DNA of 64,000 bases from Microbacterium esteraromaticum (lineage in GTDB: Bacteria > Actinomycetota > Actinomycetes > Actinomycetales > Microbacteriaceae): the NCBI RefSeq assembly GCF_014084045.1, contig NZ_CP043732.1:1922001-1986000 (forward strand), written 5' to 3'. Below the pieces are notes generated by a model. That model made no database searches, was not told the origin of the DNA, and saw only the letters and a program-made list of their open reading frames with translations. How positions within the stretch are numbered: position 1 is the first letter of the stretch; every line of letters starts with the position of its first letter. Shown piece by piece: positions 20,248 to 37,289 of this stretch. A program made the translations under genes and the position numbers.

Positions 20248-21717
20248 GTGACTGGCGCGCGTGCCGAGGCGGCATACTCTCGCTCCCTCGCGGCGTTCCG
20301 CACGCCGACGCTGGGGCTGCTTCACGGTCGCCAGGCGCCCTTCGTCATCGCCGCGCTGTCGATGCTCTTCTCGGCCGACCGGCCGTCCGTGGCCGTCGCC
20401 GACGCGCACGCCGAGGTCGCCGAGGCCCTCGACGAGCTGCGCTCCGCCGGCCACGACGACGAAGACCGTCGCATTCCCTCCGGCAGCGGCCGCGAGGTGT
20501 GCCGCACCTGGGCGAAGCAGGGCTGGCTCGTGCAGCAGATCGACGACGACGTCGAGGTGTACCGCCTCTCGGCGCACGCGGTCGAAGCGCTCGAGATCAC
20601 CGGCCGCACCGGCGGCGGGCGCACCCGCGTCTCCAACTCCCGCGTGCGCACCCTGCTCGACGCTGTCGAGCGGCTCGCCGACGAGGCGGAGGCCGACCCG
20701 GTCAAGCGCATCGCGCGCCTGACCGCCGAGCGAGACGCCCTCGACGCCGAGATCCTGCGGGTGCAGGCGAACGGCACGGTCGTCGTCGACGACGACGAGC
20801 TCTACGAAGAGGCCGAGAACATCCTGCACCTCGCGCGAGAGCTGCCGGCCGACTTCACCCGCGTCGCCGAGTCGCTCAAGACGATGCAGCGCGACGTGGT
20901 CGCGCATCTGCGTCGCGATGAGCGGCCCACAGGCGAGGTGCTGCGCGAGTACCTGCAGCGCGCGAAGAACGTCATGCAGTCCACCCCCGAGGGCCGCGCG
21001 TTCGCCGGTGCGCTGCGGCTGATCGGCGATCCCGAGCGGATCGACGCGCTCGCCGAGCAGCTGCACGACCTCCTCGCGCATCCGTTCGCCCGCCACCTCG
21101 ATGCCACGCAGCGGGCGGAGTTCGACGCGATCGGCCGACGGGTCGAGCTCGGGGTCGAAGAAGTTCTCGCCGCGCAGCGTCGCGTCTCGCACGTGATCAC
21201 CGGGCAGGTGAAGACGCACGATCCGCTGCGCGACAGACAGATAGACGACCTGCTGCGCGACGTCATCTCGGGCCTGCACCAGTGGGCGCAGGCCGCGCCG
21301 CCGAACGCCACGGTCGATCCGGTGCGCAGCCTTCCGCTCATCGACCTGGGCCGGCTGCGCCAGACGGTGGGCGACGTGCGTCCGCCCGGCGCGCCCGCAC
21401 CGCTGACCGATGCCGAAGACGTCGAGTACCTCGAGGCCGACTCGCGCTCGTGGGGAGGGCCGCGGTACGCCGAGCTCGAGGCCTACGTCGCGGGCCTGGG
21501 CGAGGAGTTCGACCTGGCGGATGCGTTCGCACACGCGCCCGACGACACCCGGCGCCCCGTGGATCTCGTCGGTCTGCTCGAGATCGCGCACCGCAACGGC
21601 ATGAACGAGACCGACGGTCTGTCGACCGTCGAGACGCTGCGCCCCGACGGCACGACGAGACGCTTCGCCTTCGTCTCGGTGACCGCTCGCGCGGCTGAGG
21701 AGGACGACGATGACTGA
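20248..21717 (+). CDS. jetA: JetA / MksF-like kleisin (DUF3375 family)
   Basis: A 489-residue protein of the DUF3375 family, recognised from its opening ([20 protein letters not shown]), the segment [23 protein letters not shown] repeat and its place before JetB and JetC. JetA is the kleisin of Wadjet/MksBEF complexes and links the SMC heads. The N-terminal 100 residues form a winged-helix-like region, a helical middle follows, and the C-terminus contacts the SMC. It overlaps jetB by eight bases. Wadjet systems close and cleave circular plasmids, whereas MksBEF can organise chromosomes. The likely leaderless promoter stands just upstream. Confidence 0.85.
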
Positions 21718-22582
21718 CGAGACGCTCGAGCCCGAGACGGCGGTCGCTCGGTCGGCCGTGCAGATGGGAAACGCCGGTGGGGATGCCGTGGAACCGGCGG
21801 TTTCCATCCGGGCATCCGGAACCCAGATGGGAAACGCCGGTGCGGATGCCGTGGAGCCGGCGGTTTCCATCCGAGACGAGGGACGCGGGCAGGCCACGGC
21901 CGAAGAGGCAGATGCCGAACCCGATGCTCCGTTCATCGCGCCCGTCGCCATGGAGGACGACCCGGACGAGATCTTCCCCGGCGACCGCGGCACACTCGAC
22001 CCCGAGGTGCGGCGGGTGCTCGTGCACGTGCTGCAGCGGCGGTTCCTCAGCGCCGACAACCGTGCCGAATGGGCGGTGCTGCTCGAGCACCAGCAGCTGA
22101 TCGAGTCGCGCATGCACGACCTGTACCTGCGCCTGGTGGTCGATCTCGGCCGGGGCGTGGCGTACAAGCAGCAGGTGCGCTCAGACGAGTTCGAGGTGCC
22201 GATCCTGCTGAAGGACGCGCCGTACAACCGCACCGAGACGCTCGTGCTCGTGCACCTGCGCACGGTCTTCCAGCGTGAATCGGCGGCGGGGGAGCCCGCC
22301 CCTCGCATCGACATCGAAGACGTCGAGCAGACCGTGCTGAGCTACCTGACGGATGCCGACGGCAGCACTGCTCGACAGCAGAAGGCGATCCGCGCCGCTC
22401 TCGACCGGCTCGACCGCGAGGGCGTCATCGACGAGGAGACCCTCGGCCGCTACCGGATCAGCCCGCTGGTCGAGGTGGTGCTGAGCGCCGAGAAGCTCGC
22501 CGAGCTGCGCGCATGGCTGCGCGAACAGGCTGCGCAGCAGGCGGCACACGCCGAGAAGGCGCAGAAGGAGACCACGCCGTGA
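21710..22582 (+). CDS. jetB: JetB / MksE-like subunit (DUF4194) with in-frame palindromic repeats
   Basis: A 290-residue protein. From about residue 95 on it is a DUF4194/MukE-like winged-helix protein ([27 protein letters not shown]). GAGGAGG precedes ATG 21710. The first 60 residues are unusual: a 21-residue unit, [16 protein letters not shown] plus spacer, occurs twice in tandem. Each unit is encoded by one copy of a palindromic DNA repeat (21761-21873), so a mobile repeat has been captured in the coding sequence without breaking the frame. JetB bridges kleisin and SMC. The gene overlaps jetA by eight and jetC by four bases. Confidence 0.85.
21761..21873 (+). repeat. Two tandem palindromic repeats inside jetB
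   Basis: Copies at 21761-21810 and 21824-21873, 63 bases apart (21 codons). Each begins CAGATGGGAAACGCCGGTG, has a loop of about 14 bases and ends CCGGCGGTTTCCATCCG; the arms are complementary over 17-18 bases with a few mismatches. The 5' arm AGATGGGAAACGCCGGTG recurs exactly at 25956-25973. They look like a REP- or RPE-like short palindromic element. Confidence 0.85.
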
Positions 22583-25500
22583 CGATGCTCGACACTCTCT
22601 TCGGGCTCATCCCCGCCGAGTCCCGCGGCCAGCAGTGGGTCGCTGAAGACCTGCAGCTGATCAACTGGGGCGGCTATGACGGCGGACCGCACCGGGTGCG
22701 GTTCTCGCCGTACGCGACATTGCTGTGCGGAGGGTCGGGGTCGGGCAAGTCGACCCTGATGGATGCCTACATCGCGCTCATGATGCCGCACACCACGCCG
22801 TTCAACGGCGCCTCGAACGGCGGGATCACCGGCCGTCCTCGCGGCGATGAGCAGCGCAACATCCTCTCGTACGGGCGCGGCAAGATCGACGAGTCGCGCA
22901 CCGACGAGGGCACCAGACTGCGGGTGCTGCGCGGCGACGGCGAGGACACCTGGACGGCGATCGCGATGACGTGGCTCGACCACGACGGCTCGCGCTTCAC
23001 GGCGCTGCGCGCCTGGTACATCCCGGCTGCCGCCCGCATCCTCGAGGACACCGTGCGCGTGCGCGCGACATTCGACGGGTTCTTCGACCTCTCGCAGCTC
23101 GAAGAGGCGGCCTCGCAGCGCCTTGCCGACTCGGCGCTTCGAACCCTTGGTCTTGAGACCCTCGGCACCGACCGCGAGTTCTCCGCCCGGCTGCACGCGG
23201 TGCTGGGCATCGGCGCCGCGGGCTCGGGCGCGAAGGCGATGAGCCTGCTCGCCCGCATCCAGGCCGGTCAGCAGATCACGACCGTGGACGACCTCTACAA
23301 GCGCCTCGTGCTCGAGGAACCAGAGACGATGGCGACGGCGGATGCCGTGGTCGCGCACTTCGACGAGCTCGAGAGCACCCGCACGAGCATGATCACCGCA
23401 CGGCAGCAGGTGAACGCGCTCGAGCCGATCCAGGGCATCCGGGAGCGGATCGCTGCCGCGGCCGAGCAGGTGCGGCTGATCGACGAGGTCGGCGACTTCG
23501 CATCGCCGAGCTCGCGCGCGACGCTGTGGCGCGCCGAGCGCCGGCTCGACCTGCTGCGCGAGGTGGAGGCGGAGCTGCGCGATCGCACGCACGCCCTCGA
23601 CCTGACCCTGCGTGAGAAGAAGGCCCTGGTCGACGCGGCCGAGGCCGAACGCGACGGACTGCTCGACCTGCTGCGGCAGTCGGGCGGCGACCGTCTCGAG
23701 ACGGCGCAGCGAGAGCTGCGCGCGGTCGAACGCCGCCTGGCCGACGTCCGGCGCGAGCGCGACCGGTTCGACGCCGTGCTCGCCGAGCTGGGCCTGTCGG
23801 CGTCGAGCGCCGACGAGTTCGCGAAGGTGCAGTCCGAAGCCCGTGCGGCGCAGTCCGAGGCATCCGCCCGCCGCCAGGCCAGGGCGACGTTCGCCGAGGC
23901 GGAGTCGGCCAGGCAGTCGCTCGCGAAGCGCCGTCGCGCGCTCGCCGAGGAGCGTGCAGAAGCAGACCGCCTGCGCGGCAGCATCCCTCCCGCTCTCGAC
24001 AGGGCTCGCATGCTGCTCGCCGAGGCCGCCGGCCTCGACGTCGACGACCTGCCGTTCGTCGGCGAGCTGATCGAGGTGCGCACCGAGTTCGAGCCGTGGC
24101 GCGAGGCGTTCAACCTCGCCCTCGGCGGCTTCGCGACGACGCTGCTCATCGACGATGCGCATCTCGCCCGGTTCCGCGCGGCGATCGACGAGGTGCGTCT
24201 GCCGATGCGGCTGCGCTACGAGGGCGTCCAGGCCGGGCTCGCCGAGTCGCCCAACGGTGACGGGCGCACCCTGCCGGGTCGTCTCGACCACCGCTCCACG
24301 CCGTTCACCGGCTGGCTGCAGCAGCGCCTCGATGAGCGCTTCGCGTTCGTCTGCGTCGACTCGTCGTCGCAGCTCTCGGCGCACACGATGGCGCTGACGA
24401 TCACGGGTCAGATGTCGCAGGGCACCCGAGGCGCGCACGGCGGGCACGGGCGCGAGAACGTGCTCGGCTTCTCGAACGAGCGACGCCTGCGCGCTCTCGA
24501 CGAGCAGGCCGAGGCCCTCGAGGCCGAGGTCGCAGCCGCGACCGCTGCGGTGACAGAGGCCGAGGCGGCGATGGATGCCATCGAGCAGCGCTCGACGGCC
24601 TTCGCGATGATCCACGGCCTCACCTGGGAGCAGATCGACGTCGACTCGCTCACGCAGGAGCTCGAGCGATGGACGGCGGTCGAGGCCGAGGTCACCACGG
24701 CGAACCCCGAGATCGCCGAGCTGCGAGAGCGGGCCGAGACGCTCAAGGTGAAGGCCGCGGTGCTGCGCGACGAGATCGGCGCGGTCGGTGCGCAGCGGGC
24801 CGAGGCGCAGGAGCGCTGGGGCGCCGTGACAGACGACGTCGACGACTGCCAGCGGGTGGTCGACGAGGCCGAGTCCCTGTCGGTGGATGCCGCGCAGGCG
24901 GCGTTCCTCGACGAGCGGTTCATGCTCTCCTCTCCGTCTGATGCGGAGGGGCTGTCGGCGAGCGAGCGCCTGGCCCGCCTCGACCTGGCCCTGAAGTCGG
25001 CGGCCGCGAGGCTTGCCGCCGATCGGCGCGCGGCCGAGGAGGCGCACGATGAGCAGCGCGAGCGCATGCGGCAGCTGATGTCGTCGTTCCTCGAGCGCTG
25101 GCCGAACCTCAATCTGCTTCCCGATCCGGATGCCTCCGTCGACGACTTCCTCCGCATTCTCGAGGCGCTGCGCGCCAACGGCCTGCACGAGCTCGAGAAC
25201 GAGTGGCGCGACAGCCTGCTGAAGCTCTCGGGAAACGATCTCACCAGCCTCGACTCGACGCTGAGCCGGTCGGTGCGCGAGATCAAGGAGCGCATCGAGC
25301 CGATCAACAGCATCATGCGCGAGCTGCCGTTCTACGACGACCAGCACCGCCTGCAGATCTCGCCCCGCGAGAGCCAGTCCGAGGCGCGCAAGCGCTTCCG
25401 ACGCGACCTGCGCGAGGTGCGAGGGCTGATCGAGGCGGCGTCGACCGATGACGAGCGCGAGCACGCGTACAAGCGGATGAGCCGACTGATCGGGCGCATG

Positions 25501-25932
25501 CGCCGCAGCGCTCCCGACTTCGCCGAGCTGATCGACGTGCGCAATCACGTGCGGGTGTCTGCCGAGCGGGTTCTCGCTGCGACGGGCGAGCACGTGGCGC
25601 TCTACGATCACATCGGCGAGAAGTCGGGTGGCGAGTCGCAGGAGCTGGTGGCGTTCATCGTCGGCGCCGCCCTGCGATATCAGCTGGGGGATGCCGGAGC
25701 GTCGCACCCGCGCTACGCGCCGGTGTTCATGGATGAGGCGCTGATCAAGGCGGATGCCCATTTCACGAAGCGTGCGATCGGCGCGTGGCGCGGCCTCGGC
25801 TTCCAGCTGGTGATCGGCGCCCCGAACGACAAGTACAGCGCGATCGAGCCGCACGTCGACGTCGAGTACACGATCCTCAAGGACACCCGCGGCCGGTCGT
25901 GGGCCAAGCCGAAGGTCGCCGTCGGGGAGTGA
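22579..25932 (+). CDS. jetC: JetC / MksB-like SMC ATPase
   Basis: A protein of about 1117 residues from GTG 22579 (four-base overlap with jetB); an ATG follows two codons on. It is an SMC-type ATPase: Walker [10 protein letters not shown] at residues 51-59; two long coiled-coil arms (about 290-500 and 640-860, rich in Glu, Arg and Ala); a hinge-like segment at about 480-620 ([17 protein letters not shown]); ABC signature SGGES at 1016-1020; Walker B FMDEA with Asp1052-Glu1053. Length and layout match JetC/MksB (SbcC/MukB-like). It would extrude DNA loops with JetA and JetB. JetD, the nuclease subunit, is not encoded next to it: truA follows. Confidence 0.9.
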
Positions 25933-25954
25933 TCTCGGCGGCAGGTTCCGTACC

Positions 25955-26004
25955 GAGATGGGAAACGCCGGTGTGGATGCGCGTGAACCGGCGATTCCCG
26001 TCTC
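25955..26004. repeat. Third copy of the palindromic repeat, between jetC and truA
   Basis: GAGATGGGAAACGCCGGT, a 14-base loop, ACCGGCGATTCCCGTCTC: 18-base arms with one wobble and one mismatch, 22 bases after the jetC stop. The 5' arm equals that of the two copies within jetB. As RNA it would fold into a strong hairpin and could end or stabilise the jet transcript. Confidence 0.85.
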
Positions 26005-26048
26005 TGAACGGGAGTGAGTGCCGAATCGGGTGAATCGACCGTCCCGTT

Positions 26049-26054
26049 TAGGCT
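26049..26054 (+). promoter_or_regulatory. -10 box TAGGCT of a probable leaderless truA promoter
   Basis: TAGGCT ends six bases before GTG 26061, with no ribosome site between, which places the expected message start at or next to the start codon. Confidence 0.5.
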
Positions 26055-26060
26055 TGACGG

Positions 26061-26942
26061 GTGCGCATTCGCCTCGACATCGCCTACGACGGCACCCATT
26101 TCCGCGGGTGGGCGAAGCAGCCGGGCCTGCGCACGGTGCAGGGGACGATCGAGGCCGCGCTGGCGCGGATCCTCGGCTCGGAGGCGCAGCTGGTGGTCGC
26201 AGGGCGCACGGATGCCGGTGTGCACGCCTCAGATCAGGTGGCGCACGTCGACCTCGATGAGGCCCAGTGGGCTCGGGTGCAGACGCGCCACGGCCACGCC
26301 GCGGCCGACCCCGCCGGGTCGCTCGCCCGTCGCATCCGGGGCGTGCTCGGCAGGTACCCCGACGTGACCGTCACCCGCAGCGGCCTCGCCCCGGATGGCT
26401 TCGATGCGCGCTTCTCGGCCGTCTGGCGCCGGTACATCTACCGTCTCGCTGACGCGACCGTGGGCTATGACCCGATGCGCCGCAACGACACGACGACGAT
26501 TCCCGCGACTCTCGACGTCGAGCTGATGGATGCCGCGGCTCAGACCCTCATCGGGCTGCACGACTTCGCCGCGTACTGCAAACCGCGCGAGGAGGCGACG
26601 ACGATCCGCACCCTGCTCGACTACCGGTGGGCGCGCGATCACGAGGGCGTGCTCGTCGCCGAGGTCAAGGCCGACGCGTTCTGCCACAGCATGGTGCGCG
26701 CCCTGGTCGGCGCGTGCGCCGCGGTGGGCGAGGGTAAGCTCGAGGTCGCGGACGTCGTGCGGCTGCGCGACGAGCTCACCCGCACCAGCGCGTTCAAGGT
26801 GCTGCCGGCGCGGGGTCTCACCCTCGCCGAGGTCGGCTATCCGGCCGACGAGCTGCTGGCATCCCGAGCCGAGCAGACCCGCGCTCGCCGCGACCGCGAG
26901 GGGGAGGACGCAGGCGGCGTCTCGGGCGAGCGCCTAACCTGA
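26061..26942 (+). CDS. truA: tRNA pseudouridine(38-40) synthase TruA
   Basis: A 293-residue enzyme that converts uridines 38-40 of the tRNA anticodon arm into pseudouridine. Catalytic Asp51 lies in the motif GRTDAGVHA. Other family blocks are YDGTHFRGWAKQ at the N-terminus, FDARFSAVWRRYIYRL in the middle and FCHSMVRALVGACAAVG near the end. Length is slightly above the usual 250-280 because of a charged C-terminal tail after LTLAEVGYP. It starts at GTG just after a -10 box, so it is probably leaderless. Confidence 0.96.
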   Translation: MRIRLDIAYDGTHFRGWAKQPGLRTVQGTIEAALARILGSEAQLVVAGRTDAGVHASDQVAHVDLDEAQWARVQTRHGHAAADPAGSLARRIRGVLGRYPDVTVTRSGLAPDGFDARFSAVWRRYIYRLADATVGYDPMRRNDTTTIPATLDVELMDAAAQTLIGLHDFAAYCKPREEATTIRTLLDYRWARDHEGVLVAEVKADAFCHSMVRALVGACAAVGEGKLEVADVVRLRDELTRTSAFKVLPARGLTLAEVGYPADELLASRAEQTRARRDREGEDAGGVSGERLT

Positions 26943-28122: not shown

Positions 28123-29322
28123 GTGGCAGCGACCGAGCACGAGACGCAGCTGTTGCTGCGGCTGTTCGGCGAACGCTGGCTGATCGATCTGTCGGCCTTC
28201 GAGGACCCGTCTCCCTTCATCGCTCGTCTGACTCAGCTGTGGTCGCGGCTGGTTGAGGGCGGTGCCGGATACGACGTCGTGTTCCGACCTCACCCGTCGG
28301 GAGCTTCAGGCGCCACAGACGATGGCGTGGTCACGGCGCACATCCCTGAGCGAACCGACGGGGCCTTCCCCTACGCGTTCTCTCGCGCGATGACCCAGGC
28401 GCTGATCACGCGTCTCACGGGCTCGGGACTGCTGCTGCATGCTGCCGGTCTTGCGTCTGCGGATGGGAGACGTGGTGTGGTGCTGGTGGCGTCGTCGGGG
28501 ACGGGAAAGAGCACGGCCGCGCGCACGCTCGGCAGACGGTTCGGCTACATCAGCGATGAGCTGATGCGAGTGGACGCCCAGCATCGAATGCACGGTCTCA
28601 CCAAGCCGCTGTCGATCATCGTCCCCGGGTTCCCCGGCGGAAAGGACGAGTCGTCGCCCGACGAGCTGGGCCTGGCCCCGACCCCCGAGGGGGCGCCGGA
28701 GCTGGCGGCGGTCATCGCCTTGTCGCGTCGTCGGGATGCGACCGGCGCCGTGCTGGAGCGGATCAGCGTGCACGAATTCATCGCCGAGGTGCTGCCGCAG
28801 TCGTCATCGATCTGGCGGAGCGAGCGTCCCTTGCAGCATCTGGTGGAGGCGGGGACCAGCGGGGGAGGGCCTTACCGGCTGGTCTACTCCGAGATCGCGG
28901 AATGCGAAGAGCTGATCGCCGGTCTGCTGAGTCCGAAGACGGCGACAGAGTTGACCCACGAATGGGTCAATCATCGACCGGTCGGAGATGAACGCTGGAC
29001 GACTTCTCCCGTTGTCGATCCGCCGCAGGTCGTGGTGACAGACGACGCTCTCGTGAGTCGGATGCCGTGGACCGATGCCATCGAGTCGGAAGACGAGGTC
29101 TCGGTGCTGGTCGGCTCGCAGTTCTCACGAATCGCCGGAATCGCGGCGCCGATCTGGGTGACATGCGCCCGACCGCGACGAGTGAGCGAGCTCACGGCGA
29201 TGCTCGTGGAGGCGCACGGACCGCATCCCGACGCGTCAGAGCTGATGCGAACGGCGCTGAACGAACTTGTGCAGCGGGGGCTCGTCAGCGTCGAAACCGG
29301 CCGGGGCGACCCCTCCGCCTGA
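28123..29322 (+). CDS. HPr kinase-like P-loop protein
   Basis: A protein of about 399 residues from GTG 28123, chosen because GGGGAGGGG lies just upstream and the upstream part of the frame is not protein-like. Residues 100-260 resemble the HprK/P C-terminal kinase domain: GSGLLLHAAGLAS, then Walker A SSGTGKST (Lys129) and ISDELMRVD. The C-terminal part (about 300-399) is unique. True HPr kinase with its N-terminal domain is not encoded; such stand-alone homologues occur beside PqqD-like proteins. It may phosphorylate a peptide, sugar or nucleotide. A gene for a PF14907-like nucleotidyltransferase, a usual companion, lies at 39636. Confidence 0.75.
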   Translation: MAATEHETQLLLRLFGERWLIDLSAFEDPSPFIARLTQLWSRLVEGGAGYDVVFRPHPSGASGATDDGVVTAHIPERTDGAFPYAFSRAMTQALITRLTGSGLLLHAAGLASADGRRGVVLVASSGTGKSTAARTLGRRFGYISDELMRVDAQHRMHGLTKPLSIIVPGFPGGKDESSPDELGLAPTPEGAPELAAVIALSRRRDATGAVLERISVHEFIAEVLPQSSSIWRSERPLQHLVEAGTSGGGPYRLVYSEIAECEELIAGLLSPKTATELTHEWVNHRPVGDERWTTSPVVDPPQVVVTDDALVSRMPWTDAIESEDEVSVLVGSQFSRIAGIAAPIWVTCARPRRVSELTAMLVEAHGPHPDASELMRTALNELVQRGLVSVETGRGDPSA

Positions 29323-29426
29323 CGACATCCTCTGTGCCGCGTCCGGCCTGGTCCGCTATCTTGTGGTCAACAGCGTGCCGGCCCCCGCGAGTGCACGCGT
29401 CCTGATCATTCCCCTAGGAGCTCCCG

Positions 29427-30464
29427 GTGTCGATGCAGGCCGTCGATCACGTCACCCTGGCGACCAACAACGGCGCCATCGGAGGCGGCGAAGTCATGCT
29501 CCTGCGCATCGCGGAGGCGCTGCGCGAGCTGTCGGTCGAGGTGACCGTCGTCGCCCCTGCCACACCTGGAGGGGTCGCTGAAGCGGCGAAGAAGGCCGGG
29601 TTCGAGACGGTGCAGCTGCACGTGAAGAACCGCCTGTCGTGGATGTGGCAGCTGCGCAGGTGGGATGCCAAGCATCGCAAGGGCGTGCTGTGGTGCAACG
29701 GTCTCGTGCCCGCGACCGCCACCTGGGGGCACCGCGATCGCATCGTTCACCTGCACCAGCACCCCGATGGACTTCACCGTGTTCTCAGTGCGCTGTCGCG
29801 CGTGGGTGCTGTCGCTACCCTCGTGCCGTCAGCGCACATGCTGCGATCTGTGCCTGGCGCCCGGGTCATGCCCAACTGGACCGCGTTGATGCCGCGCAGC
29901 GAGCGCAGCCCTGGGCCGGACGCCCCGTTCACCGTCGGTTTCCTCGGGCGTCTGGGCCCCGACAAGGGCGTTCACGTGCTCGCTCAGGCAATGCGTCTGC
30001 TCGATGAGCAGGACCCGGGGCGCTACCGCCTTGCGCTCGCCGGGGAGCCGGTGTTCGTCGCGAAATCGAAGGTCGAGCAGGTCGAGCAGGCGCTCGCCGA
30101 GGTGGACGCCCTCGTCGATCGAGTCGGGTGGGTCCGACCCTCCGAGTTCTTCGACACGATCGACCTGCTCGTCGTGCCTTCCGTCTGGGAGGAGCCGTTC
30201 GGCCTGGTCGCAGCTGAGGCCATGTCAGCACAGGTGCCGGTGGTCGTCAGCGACGCGGGTGCGCTCCCGGAGATCGTCGGCAGTGAGACCGGCATGGTGA
30301 CCCCCAAGGGGGATGCGCCGGCGCTGGCTGAGAAGATCGCTCGTATCGCCTCGGGGAATGAGGGCGTCGATGTCGCGGTGCAGCATGCTCGATGGGCCGA
30401 GAACTATTCGCCGACCGCAGGCGTCGTTCGAGTCCGCGAGCTGCTCGACACGCTCGGTGCGTGA
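29427..30464 (+). CDS. Glycosyltransferase family 4 (GT-B)
   Basis: A 345-residue GT-B enzyme. GTG 29427 is favoured by CTAGGAG ending six bases upstream; an ATG follows two codons on. The N-terminal domain has the GGGEVMLLRIAEAL glycine-rich loop; the C-terminal domain begins VGFLGRLGPDKGVHVL and carries the donor-site motif EEPFGLVAAEAMS (E-x7-E). It transfers a sugar from a nucleotide donor onto a growing lipid-linked glycan at the cytoplasmic face. It begins the plus-strand polysaccharide block after the HprK-like gene. Donor and acceptor cannot be told. Confidence 0.93.
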   Translation: MSMQAVDHVTLATNNGAIGGGEVMLLRIAEALRELSVEVTVVAPATPGGVAEAAKKAGFETVQLHVKNRLSWMWQLRRWDAKHRKGVLWCNGLVPATATWGHRDRIVHLHQHPDGLHRVLSALSRVGAVATLVPSAHMLRSVPGARVMPNWTALMPRSERSPGPDAPFTVGFLGRLGPDKGVHVLAQAMRLLDEQDPGRYRLALAGEPVFVAKSKVEQVEQALAEVDALVDRVGWVRPSEFFDTIDLLVVPSVWEEPFGLVAAEAMSAQVPVVVSDAGALPEIVGSETGMVTPKGDAPALAEKIARIASGNEGVDVAVQHARWAENYSPTAGVVRVRELLDTLGA

Positions 30465-30499
30465 AGGTTGGGTTTGACGAAGAGAATCGGAACGACTAG

Positions 30500-31627
30500 G
30501 TGAGGTTCAAGGAACTCGATGGGTTACGGGGTTTAGCAGCGCTCTCAGTCGTGCTATATCACTTCAGCGGTCACTACAACACTTACTATCCGCAAGACCC
30601 GCGCCCCTTGATCGACATCTGGTGGGGCGCTTTTGGCGTTCAGCTCTTCTTCTTAATTAGCGGATTCGTCATTCTCATGTCGGCGGATAACGCACGTCAG
30701 ACATCAGACTTCGTGATATCGCGGTTTTCGCGACTATACCCAGTCTATTGGGTTGCGTTGATCGTGGGTGTTGCCATGGGGCTGATCTTTGCTGTCCCAC
30801 ACGTGCCTCTTGCCGTTGACGTTGTGGTGATGAACATCACCATGATTCAACGGTGGTTCCTCGTTCCGAACGTGCTGGATGTCTTTTGGACGCTCGCAGT
30901 GGAGATGCAGTTCTACGCCTTGCTCTTCGCATTGCTGGTATTCACCCGGTGCCGGTTGACGGAGAAGTTGGTAGTTCGGGTGGTGCTCGTCTGGCTGATG
31001 GCCTGCCTCATGGTGGCGTTGTGGGCGTTCCCGACTACTCATGGCGTTGACCCCCAGGCTGTGCCGACCTCGGTGAAGCTCATCGTCAACGTCTTGCTCG
31101 CGTCCTACGGGCCGTTGTTCTGCACGGGCATGCTCGCATTCATCTCGCGTAGGAACGGCAGGAGGCATTGGCTGCTGCTTCCGTCGGCAGTCATCGCGGC
31201 CGTGACAACCGGCCTGATCGAGGAGTGGGTGAACGGGGGAATCGTTGCCTTGATTTGCTTCGGTTTCATCATCGTGTCACTACGCAAAGAGACGCGCCTC
31301 CTGTATCTGGCTCCGCTGCAATGGCTCGGTAAAGTGAGTTATTCTCTTTATCTGATCCATTCGATCGTGGGAATAGTCGTCATTCACCTGCTCTCGCCGT
31401 ATATCGGGCGCGCAGCGGCTACGATCCTGGCGTTCATAACAGTATTGTTCTGCGCCTGGTTGCTATGGGTCGGTGCAGAGCAGTTCCTCAGCAGGCGCGT
31501 TCGCGCGTGGCTACTGAGAGCTCGAGACGCACTCCCTCGTCGTGGCAGACCACGGGAAGCGGCACATGGCGGCTGGAGAAGGAAGCGTTCTGGAGGTCCT
31601 CAACAGGTGATCGCCAGCGATTCGTAG
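30500..31627 (+). CDS. Acyltransferase 3 family membrane protein
   Basis: A 375-residue integral membrane acyltransferase with about ten helices, opening FKELDGLRGLAALSVVLYHFSGHY, where the R and H residues match the family active site (typical of O-acetylases such as OafA). Codon use is visibly AT-richer than neighbouring genes (tta, ata, aat codons), a sign of acquisition. The cytoplasmic tail after residue 335 is basic. It would acetylate or succinylate sugars of the polysaccharide, using acyl-CoA. Start GTG 30500. Confidence 0.9.
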   Translation: MRFKELDGLRGLAALSVVLYHFSGHYNTYYPQDPRPLIDIWWGAFGVQLFFLISGFVILMSADNARQTSDFVISRFSRLYPVYWVALIVGVAMGLIFAVPHVPLAVDVVVMNITMIQRWFLVPNVLDVFWTLAVEMQFYALLFALLVFTRCRLTEKLVVRVVLVWLMACLMVALWAFPTTHGVDPQAVPTSVKLIVNVLLASYGPLFCTGMLAFISRRNGRRHWLLLPSAVIAAVTTGLIEEWVNGGIVALICFGFIIVSLRKETRLLYLAPLQWLGKVSYSLYLIHSIVGIVVIHLLSPYIGRAAATILAFITVLFCAWLLWVGAEQFLSRRVRAWLLRARDALPRRGRPREAAHGGWRRKRSGGPQQVIASDS

Positions 31628-31996
31628 TAGATAGTTGCACTGTGATCAGCACCGTCGCCAGAAAGATCGCATTCGAGCCTCGAACTGCCGTCGTGATGTG
31701 AGGCCACTTGACCCCCCAAAGGGGATGAGTCGTCTCTGTTCGCAGGCGTCGCCACCCCATAGCGAGAATCTTGAGCAGAGCTCGCGGGTGATGCGCCCAC
31801 CTGGGGGACTCAGAAGACTTCCCGTTCTCGCTCCAGGTTCGTGTGTCCGCTCCACGGATGCGGCATTCGTCGTCGGATGCGTCAGCACCGAGTTGCGACC
31901 AGTGGCCTCCGGTACGATGGGGTGGTTTACGAACGGTTGCGTGCTCAGGGGCAAGGCGCGCCGTTGTCGGTGAGTTCTGTTCGGGGGTTTGCACGC
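31628..31996. other. 369-base gene-free interval before the BY-kinase gene
   Basis: No convincing gene. It contains a CCCC-AAA-GGGG mini-hairpin at 31713-31723 and, near 31893-31918, promoter-like boxes TTGCGA and TACGAT with too short a spacing (14). Open frames on both strands lack ribosome sites and family resemblance. It probably holds the promoter and leader of the gene at 31997. Confidence 0.5.
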
Positions 31997-33610
31997 GTGA
32001 CCGTACTTGATTTCCTGGTGCTGACGAGGCGCGGTTGGAGAATCCTCACCTTGATGATCGTGCTCGGCGCTCTCGGCGGTGCGGCATACGGATTCCTCGC
32101 GCCGAAGTCCTACCAGGCGCAGTCGACCGGATTCATCGCCACGGCGGGGGACGCGGTGATCGCCGGCTCGGATGCGGCAGTCGCCCGGGCGGGTTCGTAC
32201 ACTCCTTTGATCGACAGCGCTCAGGTGCGTGAGGCCATCGCGAAAGAGGCTGGAGTTGACGTCTCGGACCTCAGCGGTGCGCTAAGCGCGGATGTTGTAC
32301 CCGGATCCACAATGATTCGCGTGACAGCGACCTCAAGTTCACCGAAGGCGGCGCTAGAACTGGCCAATGGCTCGCTACACGCCCTTGCCGCTGTGGTTGA
32401 GGAGATCGAGAAGGCCGCAGGCGCGGTGAACGCAGGGGGATTCACGATCGTCCCTATGGACAACGCAGCGCAGCCGACATCGCCAGTGTCGCCGAACCTG
32501 AGGTTGGCTGTGATCGCGGGAGCAGCCGCTGGTCTGGTCCTCGCGTATCTGGTGCTGTTTCTGCGCAGGGCGTTGGATGTCCGCGTCCGCGCTGACACCG
32601 ACACACGGGAGCTCATGGGCGCAGGCGTGCTCGCCCGCGTTCCCAAGATGGGGCGCAAGGGTACCCCTCAGGGTGATTCGCTCACCGAGACGGTCGCCAA
32701 TGAGGCGTTCAGGCAGCTGCGTACGAGTCTGCGTTTCGCGAACGTTGACAGCGAGGTGCGGGTGGTGATGGTCACCAGCGCCAACCAGGGCGAGGGCAAG
32801 TCGATGACAGCGTCGTCGCTTGCACGAGTCATCGCAGAGTCCGGGGAGCGCACGCTCATCATCGATGGCGACCTGCGACGCCCGAAGGTCGCGCGCAACT
32901 TCGGCCTGGAGGGCACCGTGGGTCTGAGCGAGGTGTTGAGCGGCCAGATAACCGTCCGCGACGCCGTGCAGTCGACAGACGCAGCGGGTCTCTTCGCGCT
33001 CGCTGCAGGCGGTACGCCTCCCAACCCGTCGGAGATGCTGGGTTCGTCGGCGTTCGGGAATCTCATCAAGGAACTGCGCAAAGACTTCTTCATCGTCATC
33101 GACGCGCCCCCCGTCCTGCCCGTTACTGATGCAACCGTCGTCAGCACGATGGTCGATGGAGTCGTGTTCGTGCTCGCCGTCGGACAGACGCGCAAGACGG
33201 CGGGTGCTGTCGCACGGGCACAGCTCGAGCAGGTGAACGCGCGAGTGCTCGGTGTGGTCCTGAATCTCGTGTCACTTAACGGCGCCGACGGCTACGGCTA
33301 CGGTTACGGTTACCGCCAGAACCGCAACTACTACGTCACGCCCAAGGGCAAGTCGCGCGGCAAGCGAAAGAAGCAAGCCTCCGCCGTCTCCGCCCCGGCG
33401 GTTGCGCGGGCTTCGCTGGTGCCTGCTGCCACTCGCGCGGATGTCGTCGCCGGCCCCAGGCGGACGGTACACGATTCGCCGTCGACCACGAACACCGTTT
33501 CTCCGACGCCGGAGCCGGCGGGTTCGTCGCAGCCTGACGTGCGTGATGCGACGCCGCCCACGCAGAGCGAACTGCCTCAACTGCGACGCCGCAGCAGCAC
33601 TCGAGCATGA
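31997..33610 (+). CDS. Wzz/BY-kinase: polysaccharide biosynthesis tyrosine autokinase
   Basis: A protein of about 537 residues from GTG 31997. The N-terminus has a membrane helix (about 14-36), a Wzz-like extracellular region and a second helix near 170-195. The cytoplasmic BY-kinase domain has Walker A ANQGEGKS (Lys268), Walker A' LIIDGDLRRPK and Walker B FFIVIDAPP. A tyrosine cluster GYGYGYGYRQNRNYY (about 433-447) is the usual autophosphorylation site. Fused Wzz and kinase is unusual in Firmicutes but normal in Actinobacteria and Gram-negatives. It controls polysaccharide chain length and export. The tail after 450 is disordered. Confidence 0.93.
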   Translation: MTVLDFLVLTRRGWRILTLMIVLGALGGAAYGFLAPKSYQAQSTGFIATAGDAVIAGSDAAVARAGSYTPLIDSAQVREAIAKEAGVDVSDLSGALSADVVPGSTMIRVTATSSSPKAALELANGSLHALAAVVEEIEKAAGAVNAGGFTIVPMDNAAQPTSPVSPNLRLAVIAGAAAGLVLAYLVLFLRRALDVRVRADTDTRELMGAGVLARVPKMGRKGTPQGDSLTETVANEAFRQLRTSLRFANVDSEVRVVMVTSANQGEGKSMTASSLARVIAESGERTLIIDGDLRRPKVARNFGLEGTVGLSEVLSGQITVRDAVQSTDAAGLFALAAGGTPPNPSEMLGSSAFGNLIKELRKDFFIVIDAPPVLPVTDATVVSTMVDGVVFVLAVGQTRKTAGAVARAQLEQVNARVLGVVLNLVSLNGADGYGYGYGYRQNRNYYVTPKGKSRGKRKKQASAVSAPAVARASLVPAATRADVVAGPRRTVHDSPSTTNTVSPTPEPAGSSQPDVRDATPPTQSELPQLRRRSSTRA

Positions 33611-33704
33611 GGCGTGAAGCGGTGTGGATCTGGCTGAGTTCACTTCACATTCGCTGCCCATAGGCCGTCGATCGCGTGAGCGCCCGATTCACAAGGAATA
33701 GCGT

Positions 33705-34733
33705 ATGAAGGTTCTGATCACGGGCGGGGCTGGTTTCATCGGCCAGCGAGTCGCCTCGTTGCTGGTGGAACGCGGGGATACGGTCATCGCACTCGATTCA
33801 CTTCTGCCCCAGGTCCATGTCGACCCTGACGAGGCCGTTGGACGGTTCCCGGGAGAGGTCGTGTTCGGCGATGTCGCCGATCAGTCCGCATGGGCTTCGG
33901 TGCCGGAGTTCGACGCTCTGATCCACCTCGCGGCCGAGACCGGCACGGCGCAGTCGATGTACGAGCGCGAGCGCTACGAGCGCGTCAACGTCGAAGGCAC
34001 TCGACTCGCCGCCCGGGCCGCCGCGCGCGCGGGCGTGCCGATGGTCTCGCTCAGCTCGCGTGCGGTCTATGGAGAGGGAGTCGTGGGCGAAGGCGGCGCT
34101 CTGCTCGCATCGCAGGAAGATGACGACCACGCACCTGTGTCGTTCTACGGCGAGACGAAGTCTCTCGCAGAGCGTGCGGCCACCGAAGAGGCAGGAGAAC
34201 GGGCTCCTCTGACCATCATCCGACCTCAGAACGTGATCGGACTCGGCCAAGCGCTGCACAACCCCTACACCGGTGTCCTGGCGGCGTTCCTGGCGCGACT
34301 GCGCGAGGGTCGGGCCCTGTCGATCTACGGTGACGGCACTCAGACACGCGACTTCGTGCACGTCGATGACCTCGCCGAGCTGATCCTCTGGAGCCTCGAC
34401 GTCCCTCCCGGAAGCGGATCGACGCGAGTGCTCAATTGCGGCACCGGGGAGCGCACGACGTTGACTCAATTGGCCGAGTACGCGATCGCTGCTGCTCCGG
34501 GTGACGCGGTCTCGATCGAGTACGTCGATGTGCATCGCTCCGGAGACATCGAGCACGCGTGCGCGGACCTGAGCCGGCTGCGTGAGCTGGAAGCGCCTCT
34601 GCCGAAGCGCAGCACGGAACAGGCGGTCGCCGAGTTCATCCGTGGTTCATGGGACGGCAAGGTCGCTGCCTCAACGGTGTGGGACGATGCGCTCGCAGAA
34701 CTCAACGACCGAGGATTGGCGTCTTCTTCATGA
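33705..34733 (+). CDS. NAD-dependent sugar epimerase/dehydratase
   Basis: A 342-residue extended SDR enzyme. GGAGFIG (7-13) binds NAD; catalytic Tyr148 and Lys152 lie in SFYGETK; the segment IRPQNVIGLGQ, then YGDGTQTRDFVHVDDLA, is typical of UDP-sugar 4-epimerases and dehydratases. AAGGAA lies before the ATG. It supplies an activated sugar for the polysaccharide. Its stop overlaps the start of the next gene (ATGA), beginning a chain of four coupled genes to 37289. Product sugar unknown. Confidence 0.93.
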   Translation: MKVLITGGAGFIGQRVASLLVERGDTVIALDSLLPQVHVDPDEAVGRFPGEVVFGDVADQSAWASVPEFDALIHLAAETGTAQSMYERERYERVNVEGTRLAARAAARAGVPMVSLSSRAVYGEGVVGEGGALLASQEDDDHAPVSFYGETKSLAERAATEEAGERAPLTIIRPQNVIGLGQALHNPYTGVLAAFLARLREGRALSIYGDGTQTRDFVHVDDLAELILWSLDVPPGSGSTRVLNCGTGERTTLTQLAEYAIAAAPGDAVSIEYVDVHRSGDIEHACADLSRLRELEAPLPKRSTEQAVAEFIRGSWDGKVAASTVWDDALAELNDRGLASSS

Positions 34734-35275
34734 ATCTCGCTCGGACCCTGACTGAGCTTCCCCCGTCGTTGCGCTGGCGCTGGTATGAGCTGCTTTCGCG
34801 TCTCATCTACCGGCGCGCGTTCAAGAACTACGGCGCGGGCAGTGTGATCGTCGCACCTCTTCGCCTGCGAGGTACCGAACGGATAGTGATCGGCAGCCGG
34901 TTGGCCGCCTACGAAGGGTGCTGGATCGAGGCGGAGCCGGGCGCGCACCTGACGATCGGCGATCGTGTCTACCTCGGTCATCGCGTTCACCTTCACGCAG
35001 TCGGAAACATCACGGTTGGGAATGGAGTCATGATGACTGACAACGTCATGGTGAGTTCTGGTTCCCACGAGATGGACGAAGCCAAGTCCGCCGTTCCGGG
35101 GGCACCCATTGTGATCGGCGACGACGTGTTCATCGGGCAGAACGCGATGGTGCTCGCGGGGGTGACGATCGGACCGGGGGCGACAGTTGGCGCCGGGGCG
35201 GTCGTGACTCGTGACGTGCCGGCCGGGGCCACGGTAGCGGGGGTACCTGCCCGCATCGTTGCGACGGCGCGATGA
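34730..35275 (+). CDS. Hexapeptide-repeat acyltransferase
   Basis: A protein of about 181 residues from ATG 34730, which overlaps the epimerase stop. The left-handed beta-helix repeats run from about residue 55 (VIGSRLAAYEG, LTIGDRVYLG, ITVGNGVMMTDN) to the end (VTIGPGATVGAGAVVTRDVPAGATVAGVPAR), the classical ending of the LbetaH transferases (WecD/VatD/NeuD group). It probably transfers acetyl from acetyl-CoA to a sugar hydroxyl or amine in glycan building. Helical N-terminus of about 45 residues. Confidence 0.92.
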   Translation: MNLARTLTELPPSLRWRWYELLSRLIYRRAFKNYGAGSVIVAPLRLRGTERIVIGSRLAAYEGCWIEAEPGAHLTIGDRVYLGHRVHLHAVGNITVGNGVMMTDNVMVSSGSHEMDEAKSAVPGAPIVIGDDVFIGQNAMVLAGVTIGPGATVGAGAVVTRDVPAGATVAGVPARIVATAR

Positions 35276-36261
35276 GAATCCTCGTCGTCAGTCCTGGCTT
35301 CCATGGCTACGCGTCGGCGATCGGCCGCACGCTCGCGTCGTTCGGACACGATGCGCGGGTGCATGTCTACGATCGAGCGGCCGGTCCAGTGGGTCGTGCG
35401 GGGATGCGTGCGGTTCTCAATCACCCCCGCAGTGCCCTGGCGATTCGCACCAGACGCGCGCTCACGGCTCGCGCGATCGCGGCTGTGCGGGAGAGTAGGC
35501 CCGATGCGGTGATCGTGATCCGCGGTGACCTGCTCGGTGGAGAATGGTGGGAGCAACTCGACCACCTCTCGATGCCGCGTGTGACGTGGTTCTACGACGA
35601 ACTCCGGCGCATGCGTTACGACGAGGGACTTTTGGATGAGATCGGACCCCTTGCGACCTACAGCCCGATCGATGCCAAGGATCTCGCGGAGCGCGGCCTT
35701 GACTCGCATCACGTACCGCTGGGTTTCGACGCGCTGCAGCCGATCTCGGCGCGCGACGTTCGGGGAGTGAGCTTCATCGGTGCGCGCTATCCCGGGCGGG
35801 AGCACGTCCTCAGGTCACTTGCGGCTCACGGAGTGGACGTGGTCGCCTTCGGCCGTGACTGGTCTCGCCACCCGGTGGACGTGCTTCGATCAGGGCAGTT
35901 CACGCACCCGGGCGTGCGCGCAGAGCGCGAGCTGCCTCGCAGCCTGGCATACGGAGCCATGCAGGGCTCGGCGGCGACCATGAACCTTCACGGCGACCAG
36001 GACGGCTTCACCATGCGCACTTTCGAGGCAGCGGGTGTCGGTGGCGTGCAGATCTGCGACAGATCGGACGTGAGTGAGCACTATGACGTGGGCACCGAGC
36101 TGCTGACGTTCGCACATCTCGATGAGCTCGTCGAGCTGTGTCGAAGGACGACACGCGATGTCGGGTGGGCCGACGGCCTTCGCGTGCAGGGGCAGAGGCG
36201 CACTCTCGCCGAGCACACACTTGCGCATCGATTGCGTCGGCTGGAGGGACTATGGGCTTGA
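35272..36261 (+). CDS. CgeB-like glycosyltransferase (GT-B)
   Basis: A 329-residue protein starting at the ATGA overlap. It opens ILVVSPGFHGYASAIGRTL and contains a C-terminal block typical of the glycosyltransferase 1 / CgeB group: FIGARYPGREHVLRSL, MNLHGDQDGFTMRTFEAAGVGG and the ending DELVEL. These are GT-B transferases found in spore-coat and capsule clusters. It overlaps the next gene by 10 bases. The donor sugar is unknown. Confidence 0.85.
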   Translation: MRILVVSPGFHGYASAIGRTLASFGHDARVHVYDRAAGPVGRAGMRAVLNHPRSALAIRTRRALTARAIAAVRESRPDAVIVIRGDLLGGEWWEQLDHLSMPRVTWFYDELRRMRYDEGLLDEIGPLATYSPIDAKDLAERGLDSHHVPLGFDALQPISARDVRGVSFIGARYPGREHVLRSLAAHGVDVVAFGRDWSRHPVDVLRSGQFTHPGVRAERELPRSLAYGAMQGSAATMNLHGDQDGFTMRTFEAAGVGGVQICDRSDVSEHYDVGTELLTFAHLDELVELCRRTTRDVGWADGLRVQGQRRTLAEHTLAHRLRRLEGLWA

Positions 36262-37289
36262 ACATTCCAGCCGATCTGGCCGACTGGAGATCGTGGGAGC
36301 GCCGACAGCACCGTCTCCGCAACCTGCGCGCGGCGATCGGCCGAACGACAGAGACATCGCCGACACTCCGCGCAGCTGCTCGTGGCGAAGCGCCTTCCGT
36401 CCTGTTGGCGATCGATTCGACCTCGCGATCAGGGATAGCTTCCTTGCACGCCTTGATCGCGCGCCTGCCGGCGCTCGTGATCGTAAGCTCGGTGCACTCG
36501 CAGCAGCAGCTCACCGAGCTTCTCGGCGCAGCGGAGACAAAGTCACGAGAGGTCGACATCACCGACCTTCCGCGCTCGCTCGCCGCAGTTGTCTCTGCAG
36601 GGCACTACGTTCCCGCCGGCGAGTTCGGGTGGCGGACTTCGCAGGAACGCCGGGTTCCTCACTTCGTCGTGCAGCACGGTCTGCTCACTCCTTTCGCTCC
36701 TCCGCTGCCACACGGGGCGACGCTGCTCGCCTTCAGCGATGATGACGCGGCGTTCTGGGCGTCGGAGCGAAGCGATATCGAAGGAATCGCTGTCGGTGCG
36801 CAGCTGCTGTGGGACACATCGACGACGGAATCCAAGACGCACCCCAGCGGGCCACCGGTCTACCTGGGCCAGCTCCACGGATCCGAGCTGCCGCGACGCG
36901 GCAAGACTCGATCCACAGCCCGATTCTGGCGGCAGACCGGAGCGATCTATCGGCCGCACCCCTTCGAAGCGGATCGGCTGTCCAGGGCGCAGCACGCGAT
37001 CTGGCAGGCACGCGGCATGCGGATCGACCGCAGCAATCTGCCGATTCGCGAGCTCGGCGGTCCGATCGTCGGCGCCTTTTCCACCGGAATTCTCGAGGCT
37101 GCTGCGTCCGGGTTTCCCGCCTGGGCGTACTACGAGAATCCTCCGCGCTGGCTCGAGGAGTTCTGGGACCGTTACCGAATCCACCGGTGGGGCGCGGATG
37201 CCGCCCCGACACCTGCGCCTCCTCGCCCGGCCATCGAGCCGGCTCAGGCCATCGCCGACGCTGTGCTTGCGGCAACGGGCGAACGCTGA
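36252..37289 (+). CDS. Polysaccharide-locus protein, possible GT-B-fold transferase
   Basis: A 345-residue protein not firmly recognised. ATG 36252 is chosen because it lies in the 10-base overlap with the previous gene. The C-terminal half has IYRPHPFEADR and later GPIVGAFSTGILEAAASGFPAWAYYENP, which resembles the donor-binding half of CDP-glycerol/polysialyl-type transferases (RPHP, then a FSTGILEA loop). It directly precedes the NeuB fusion gene, which makes a nonulosonic-acid transferase an attractive guess. No membrane segment or signal. Function is inference. Confidence 0.6.
   Translation: MGLNIPADLADWRSWERRQHRLRNLRAAIGRTTETSPTLRAAARGEAPSVLLAIDSTSRSGIASLHALIARLPALVIVSSVHSQQQLTELLGAAETKSREVDITDLPRSLAAVVSAGHYVPAGEFGWRTSQERRVPHFVVQHGLLTPFAPPLPHGATLLAFSDDDAAFWASERSDIEGIAVGAQLLWDTSTTESKTHPSGPPVYLGQLHGSELPRRGKTRSTARFWRQTGAIYRPHPFEADRLSRAQHAIWQARGMRIDRSNLPIRELGGPIVGAFSTGILEAAASGFPAWAYYENPPRWLEEFWDRYRIHRWGADAAPTPAPPRPAIEPAQAIADAVLAATGER

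Follow-up and report, generated by a model that had tools for sequence, protein, structure and literature searches.

A type I Wadjet-like JetABC operon without a detected JetD in Microbacterium esteraromaticum and its relatives

The jetABC operon of Microbacterium esteraromaticum is, on balance, probably a stand-alone type I JetABC (MksFEB-like) system that lost its JetD/MksG partner long ago and serves a JetD-independent role, most likely as an accessory condensin-like complex. The operon lies in a window of 64,000 nucleotides, the whole stretch of DNA that was analysed (C1:1922001-1986000). The host genome (G000) is a single contig of 3,367,524 bases and is 99.98% complete; the nearest named relatives of the window are mostly Microbacterium species.

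Wadjet is understood as a motor combined with a cutter. In Pseudomonas, MksBEF without MksG is a three-gene SMC complex that is said to act on the chromosome. Among actinobacteria, a point of comparison is Corynebacterium glutamicum, whose MksBEFG is a type I Wadjet; the family acts in plasmid defence where tested (PMC10123090). According to the same report, MksB binds DNA, plasmid DNA stimulates the ATPase activity of MksBEF without MksG, and the kleisin MksF binds MksG; deletion of mksG, like that of mksB, is described there as raising the copy number of pBHK18 and not that of pJC1 (PMC10123090). Deletion of mksB was reported to have no large-scale effect on the chromosome (PMC7083940).

The jetABC locus

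The three genes are tightly coupled ORFs on one strand, and jetA and jetB overlap by 8 bp (Table 1). The JetA, JetB and JetC layout and motifs proposed in the earlier note were confirmed by PADLOC, Pfam and PDB matches. The best PADLOC scores are 708.8 bits for JetA (JetA1), 362.2 bits for JetB (JetB1) and 1653.7 bits for JetC (JetC1). Pfam assigns jetA to DUF3375 (381.1 bits), jetB to DUF4194 (123.9 bits) and jetC to AAA_29 and SbcC_Walker_B, and relatives of solved structure in the PDB were found for all three proteins (JetC, E=1.7e-48; JetA, E=3.1e-17; JetB, E=2.8e-9). The JetC ATPase motifs are present, namely Walker A, the signature KSGGES and Walker B VFMDEAL. Translation of jetC most likely starts at ATG 22585, 2 bp past the jetB stop, rather than at the ORF start 22513; both the gene call and a PADLOC match beginning at residue 24 of the longer ORF point to the later start.

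Table 1. Features of the jetABC locus; positions are those of the window.
Feature	Position	Strand	Remarks
jetA (kleisin, MksF-like, DUF3375)	20248..21717	+	489 aa, GTG start; PADLOC, Pfam and PDB matches
jetB (kite, MksE-like, DUF4194)	21710..22582	+	290 aa; PADLOC, Pfam and PDB matches
jetC (SMC ATPase, MksB-like)	22585..25932	+	1115 aa from ATG 22585; PADLOC and PDB matches, motifs
jetC-truA spacer	25933..26060	+	one repeat copy at 25960-25993
truA (neighbour, outside the Jet system)	26061..26942	+	Pfam PF01416, 106.7 bits

A TetR-type regulator and a short-chain dehydrogenase are encoded 5' of the operon. On the 3' side, a single copy of a short repeat is followed by truA, as the earlier note had it, and then by a gene of the endonuclease/exonuclease/phosphatase family. 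The codon usage of jetABC resembles that of its upstream neighbours and of truA.

The short repeat is palindrome-like (GGGAAACGCCGGT...CCGGCG); with up to 3 mismatches allowed, the genome holds five copies, of which three belong to the jetABC operon. Two of these lie in frame in the 5' part of jetB (21766-21799 and 21829-21862), and the third is the spacer copy listed in Table 1. The jetB copies are 63 bp (21 codons) apart, and a 21-residue repeat occurs twice within the first ~65 residues of JetB. The JetB of L051, a locus with a 93% identical JetC, is without this repeat; the JetBs of L052, L053 and L108 carry related peptide repeats. A shift in codon usage was also seen 3' of truA, at 28123-37289 of the window, where most genes have a GC3 of 0.70-0.82 and low codon scores. 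Its genes include a glycosyltransferase and an acyltransferase, and the stretch is perhaps an acquired surface-polysaccharide region.

Search for JetD

The earlier note had described JetD as missing from the locus; this is borne out, and extends to the whole genome. Neither the JetD_C profile (PF09983), nor the DUF3322 profile (PF11795), nor a profile built from eight JetDs of the matching lineage had a match anywhere in G000. The JetD nuclease of a type I Wadjet (DUF3322 plus JetD_C/DUF2220) was hence found neither in the operon nor elsewhere in this genome. Both Pfam searches recovered C. glutamicum among 14 control genomes, and the eight-JetD profile recovers JetD in JetD-bearing relatives, including G101, G025 and G118, which are source genomes of profile members. 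In JetD-bearing relatives, for example L180 and L186, jetD lies directly after jetC. With a permissive JetD profile (E up to 10, frames of at least 40 aa), the 94 JetD-free loci of the window's JetC clade gave no match.

JetD-free systems in Microbacterium and beyond

A JetC relative is present in 69 of 149 evenly drawn Microbacterium genomes, and in 58 it belongs to the window's clade (at least 63% identity); two or four JetC candidates were scored per genome, so that the JetC copies per genome are lower bounds. DUF3375 (JetA) was matched in 73 of the 149 genomes, 70 of them above the cut-off, and JetD_C in 19. The usual state in the genus is a clade JetC without any JetD_C match (47 of 58 genomes). 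As for the remaining 11, jetD adjoins the clade jetC in G042 and G101, and JetD is found beside a second, distant JetC in G025, G026, G028, G055, G064 and G065. The last three contain fragments only, in G052, or short fragments elsewhere in the genome, in G102 and G106. Across the phylum, JetC relatives were found in 16 of 396 sampled genomes.

A second JetD-free group within Microbacterium (L071, L072, L073 and L075) has JetCs that are 36-39% identical to the window's. Its genomes G057, G032 and G061 have no JetD_C match, and the match in G038 belongs to another system. More distant JetABC without jetD were found in six genomes of another family of the class (f6); a JetD_C match is absent from G186, G445, G506 and G530 and lies elsewhere in the genome in G471 and G222. 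Single JetD-free cases are L181, L185, G198 (no JetD_C match in the genome) and one locus of G156. The distant jetD-less JetABC of L207-L213 (G530, G471, G186, G506, G445, G222 and G156) each stand alone in an unrelated neighbourhood.

Phylogeny of JetC and the history of jetD

A quick tree of 119 JetC proteins was built under LG+G4 with SH-aLRT support. From 154 JetCs of at least 850 aa, 133 were distinct; 16 of these, of which 14 were distant and two truncated at contig ends, were left out, and the fragmentary JetCs of L108 and L077 were added, only L077, L078 and L108 being shorter than 850 aa. The loci L110-L189 are the best 80 of 165 relatives, and the window's clade is therefore over-represented among them.

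This clade comprises 99 rows, from Microbacterium, Leucobacter, Tessaracoccus, Gulosibacter, Arenivirga, Corynebacterium and others. No jetD stands beside jetC in 94 of them, with at least 1300 bp of sequence available 3' of jetC in 89 and less than 1300 bp in five; three rows have jetD (L096, L108 and L191), and two are broken or partial (L124 and L077). The closest JetABC outside the clade are those of a sister group from Actinomadura, Nocardia, Actinoplanes and Lentzea, together with G198. Their JetCs (Actinomadura, Nocardia, Actinoplanes and Lentzea) are 57-59% identical to that of the window and the gene order is shared, but jetD directly follows jetC in 8 of the 11 rows of the sister group. 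In a wider tree of 61 JetC rows, the deep joins are unsure because long branches meet.

The pattern within the clade takes 17 events if there were losses alone and, by a hand count on the tree, 5 if one early loss was followed by four later gains. A well-supported group unites the JetDs of the sister group, L074 and L076 with those of L096, L108, L124 and L191, the branches being long in each case, and the motifs of the TOPRIM region are kept in the JetDs of L096, L108 and L191. In L108 and L124 the GC3 of jetD is out of line with that of its own jetC (0.676 vs 0.920 and 0.791 vs 0.922, respectively), which fits late capture. It is in line in L096 (0.831 vs 0.882) and L191 (0.778 vs 0.803), as it is in 15 other JetD loci (-0.077 to +0.053). 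The clade's history may be read from these sequences as an old loss of jetD with occasional recapture.

Integrity and selection

Walker A, signature and Walker B are intact in all 94 JetD-free JetCs. Apart from contig-end cuts, the reading frames are intact in 92 of the 94 JetD-free rows, the exceptions being a split jetB in L151 and in L147; four more rows run into contig ends, and in draft assemblies an apparent break may be an artefact and a gene may be missed. Among the clade rows with jetD or pieces of it, jetC is split in L108, jetD is split in L124, and L077 holds fragments only. L096 and L191 are whole; the jetA of L191 is cut in the first locus and complete in L215.

For 16 JetD-free pairs, dN/dS ranges from 0.044 to 0.162 in JetA, from 0.037 to 0.188 in JetB and from 0.053 to 0.168 in JetC. 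The corresponding values for three JetD-bearing pairs of the sister group are 0.129-0.363 (JetC) and 0.218-0.352 (JetD); two JetD-bearing Microbacterium pairs (L040/L041 and L041/L043) gave 0.038 and 0.033 for JetC and 0.173-0.188 for JetD. This comparison indicates that JetD-free jetABC is under selection of ordinary strength for the family. Since the JetC values of the JetD-bearing Microbacterium pairs lie below those of every JetD-free pair, JetD-free loci are not more constrained in general. The marks of a remnant, namely broken frames, lost motifs and relaxed selection, were not seen.

Decay does occur in the Jet family. G052 contains fragments of two Jet systems (L077 and L078), one of the window's clade and one distant; the clade-type fragment consists of the C-terminal part of jetC and an N-terminal piece of jetD.

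Neighbourhood and candidate partners

No fixed linked fourth gene that would replace JetD was found. Besides jetA, jetB and jetC, no gene family occurs in more than 8 of 60 loci (the window and 59 fetched loci), and in eight further JetD-free loci no family is found 3' of jetC in more than one. Of 47 JetD-free clade loci, 17 have a co-directional gene next after jetC, which in one of them overlaps jetC; the median distance is 77 bp. The endonuclease/exonuclease/phosphatase-family gene (cluster c17) is present in 6 of the 60 loci and sits after truA, and is therefore not a candidate for a JetABC partner.

Two further ideas were considered and rejected. A defence-island context for the JetD-free loci was not adopted, the PADLOC counts for neighbours being suggestive only: a set of 115 neighbour proteins, taken one per cluster at the JetD-free clade loci within L051-L109, includes nine PADLOC families with one member each, and 32 neighbours of eight JetD-bearing loci include eight families with ten memberships, where memberships are counted and the number of distinct proteins may differ. 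A lost JetD interface on JetA looked promising because the kleisin is reported to bind the nuclease in C. glutamicum (PMC10123090). Positions 95, 129 and 148 are R/E/P in 86% of 14 JetD-bearing JetAs and in 0-1% of 90 JetD-free clade JetAs. However, L096, L108 and L124 also show the changed residues although jetD is present there, whole or in pieces, and the JetD-free L071, L072, L073 and L075 retain R/E/P; the change tracks phylogeny, not JetD.

Inheritance and mobility

JetC distances track those of ScpA plus ScpB across 40 genomes, one of which (G101) has jetD; the Mantel r is 0.669, and the largest value in 499 permutations is 0.269. Exceptions suggest transfer, for example G130 and G102, which are close by core genes and distant by JetC. 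As judged from these distances, descent of jetABC is largely vertical, and the operon seems to have been resident for a long time and to be somewhat mobile. No JetC relative of at least 60% identity was found in the plasmid or phage collections. JetC matches there number 15 among 72,556 plasmid records and 1 among 50,697 phage records, all below 60% identity, and spread by plasmid or phage was rejected on these counts.

By a hand count, 34 of the 58 genomes have scpA and the clade jetC on a single contig. The two genes are 11-101 kb apart in 20 of them, which come from two separate parts of the JetC tree; proximity to scpA is possibly the ancestral location. In the window genome the distance is ~1.4 Mb.

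Comparison with known systems

As in type I Wadjet JetABCD (PDB e.g. 8q72), homologues of JetA, JetB and JetC are encoded in a single operon in matching order, and the SMC ATPase motifs of JetC are shared; JetD accompanies these proteins in 8q72, whereas the window genome has no detected jetD. With C. glutamicum MksBEFG the operon shares its actinobacterial setting, as a second SMC system alongside Smc-ScpAB, and its kleisin, kite and SMC subunits. The C. glutamicum operon includes mksG, whereas searches of the window genome gave no homologue of mksG. With Pseudomonas MksBEF the operon has in common the combination of kleisin, kite and SMC genes without a nuclease gene. It differs in that JetB is below the Pfam cut-off for MksE (24.2 vs 27 bits) and scores strongly for DUF4194, and in its place within a type I Wadjet lineage with JetD-bearing sisters. 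It also differs from MukBEF, in that JetC is below the cut-off of the MukB N-terminal family (20.1 vs 23 bits).

Discussion

The many relatives with intact motor genes and no cutter gene suggest that the motor is probably useful without JetD. By its family, JetABC would be expected to bind DNA, hydrolyse ATP and extrude loops, and would act via extrusion or topology, with no cutting; selection would then retain jetABC for a job independent of JetD. The likeliest use would be as an accessory condensin-like complex beside Smc-ScpAB, and the next likeliest an influence on plasmid copy number or segregation that involves no cutting. The chromosome condensin envisaged in the earlier note is possible in this form, and not as a replacement of Smc-ScpAB: ScpA was found in 145 of the 149 genus genomes, including that of the window, which rules replacement out, and of the 58 genomes with a clade JetC only G044, a 650-contig draft, has no ScpA match. 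Confidence in the condensin-like reading is not higher because the result of deleting mksB in C. glutamicum speaks against an assumed chromosomal role.

The data on MksG from C. glutamicum imply that plasmids should not be restricted through cleavage by a motor that has no MksG, except where a different enzyme makes the cut. The main rival reading is a Wadjet with a replaced cutter, in which JetABC would still detect small DNA circles by extrusion and the cutting would fall to a nuclease or topoisomerase of the host encoded elsewhere. This is rather unlikely, but draws on the intact motor, on the role of the family in plasmid defence where tested, on the binding of topoisomerase IV by MukB stated in the same report (PMC10123090), and on a distribution (58 of 149 genomes) that is patchy and, with some transfer, would suit an accessory defence gene no less than a condensin. 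For the different effector suggested in the earlier note, no fixed linked candidate emerged at the loci compared; such an effector may be an unlinked one. A motor for plasmid defence might instead be idle or weak without JetD, and be kept because JetD is regained now and then. The three clade rows with jetD and the two with pieces indicate that the motor may still work with JetD, and the GC3 values of the JetDs of L108 and L124 agree with late capture. Against this, purifying selection on JetD-free JetABC needs a present benefit, and among the five rows concerned jetC is broken or truncated in L108 and L077 and jetD is split in L124, which leaves such a halfway module improbable.

Far less probable is a jetD elsewhere in the genome that acts in trans. 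The earlier note had asked for such a gene and for a JetC clade with a JetD partner in trans, and some JetD_C match does occur in 11 of the 58 genus genomes with a clade JetC. However, the three profile searches found none in the window genome, the other 47 genomes are without any JetD_C match, and the 11 resolve into two with jetD beside the clade jetC, six with JetD at a second, distant JetC and three with fragments only. The least probable explanation is a decaying remnant of a former JetABCD. The absence of JetD, set beside its frequent presence in the sister group, would agree with the defence remnant named in the earlier note; that option is contradicted by the intact coding sequences (92 of 94), the ATPase motifs (94 of 94) and the purifying selection (dN/dS 0.037-0.188) seen across a large clade.

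The reading of the operon as a stand-alone JetABC can be taken further, though only tentatively. These systems may form a nuclease-free branch of type I Wadjet, long kept in several actinobacterial families, in which extrusion alone would control chromosomes or plasmids and JetD would be an optional part that is sometimes recaptured. That selection maintains the motor across a large clade with no JetD found suggests a function for the motor by itself. The clade is a natural source of JetD-free complexes for which closely related JetD-bearing systems can serve as controls. It also carries a warning, in that a label of anti-plasmid defence given on the basis of JetABC alone may be wrong.
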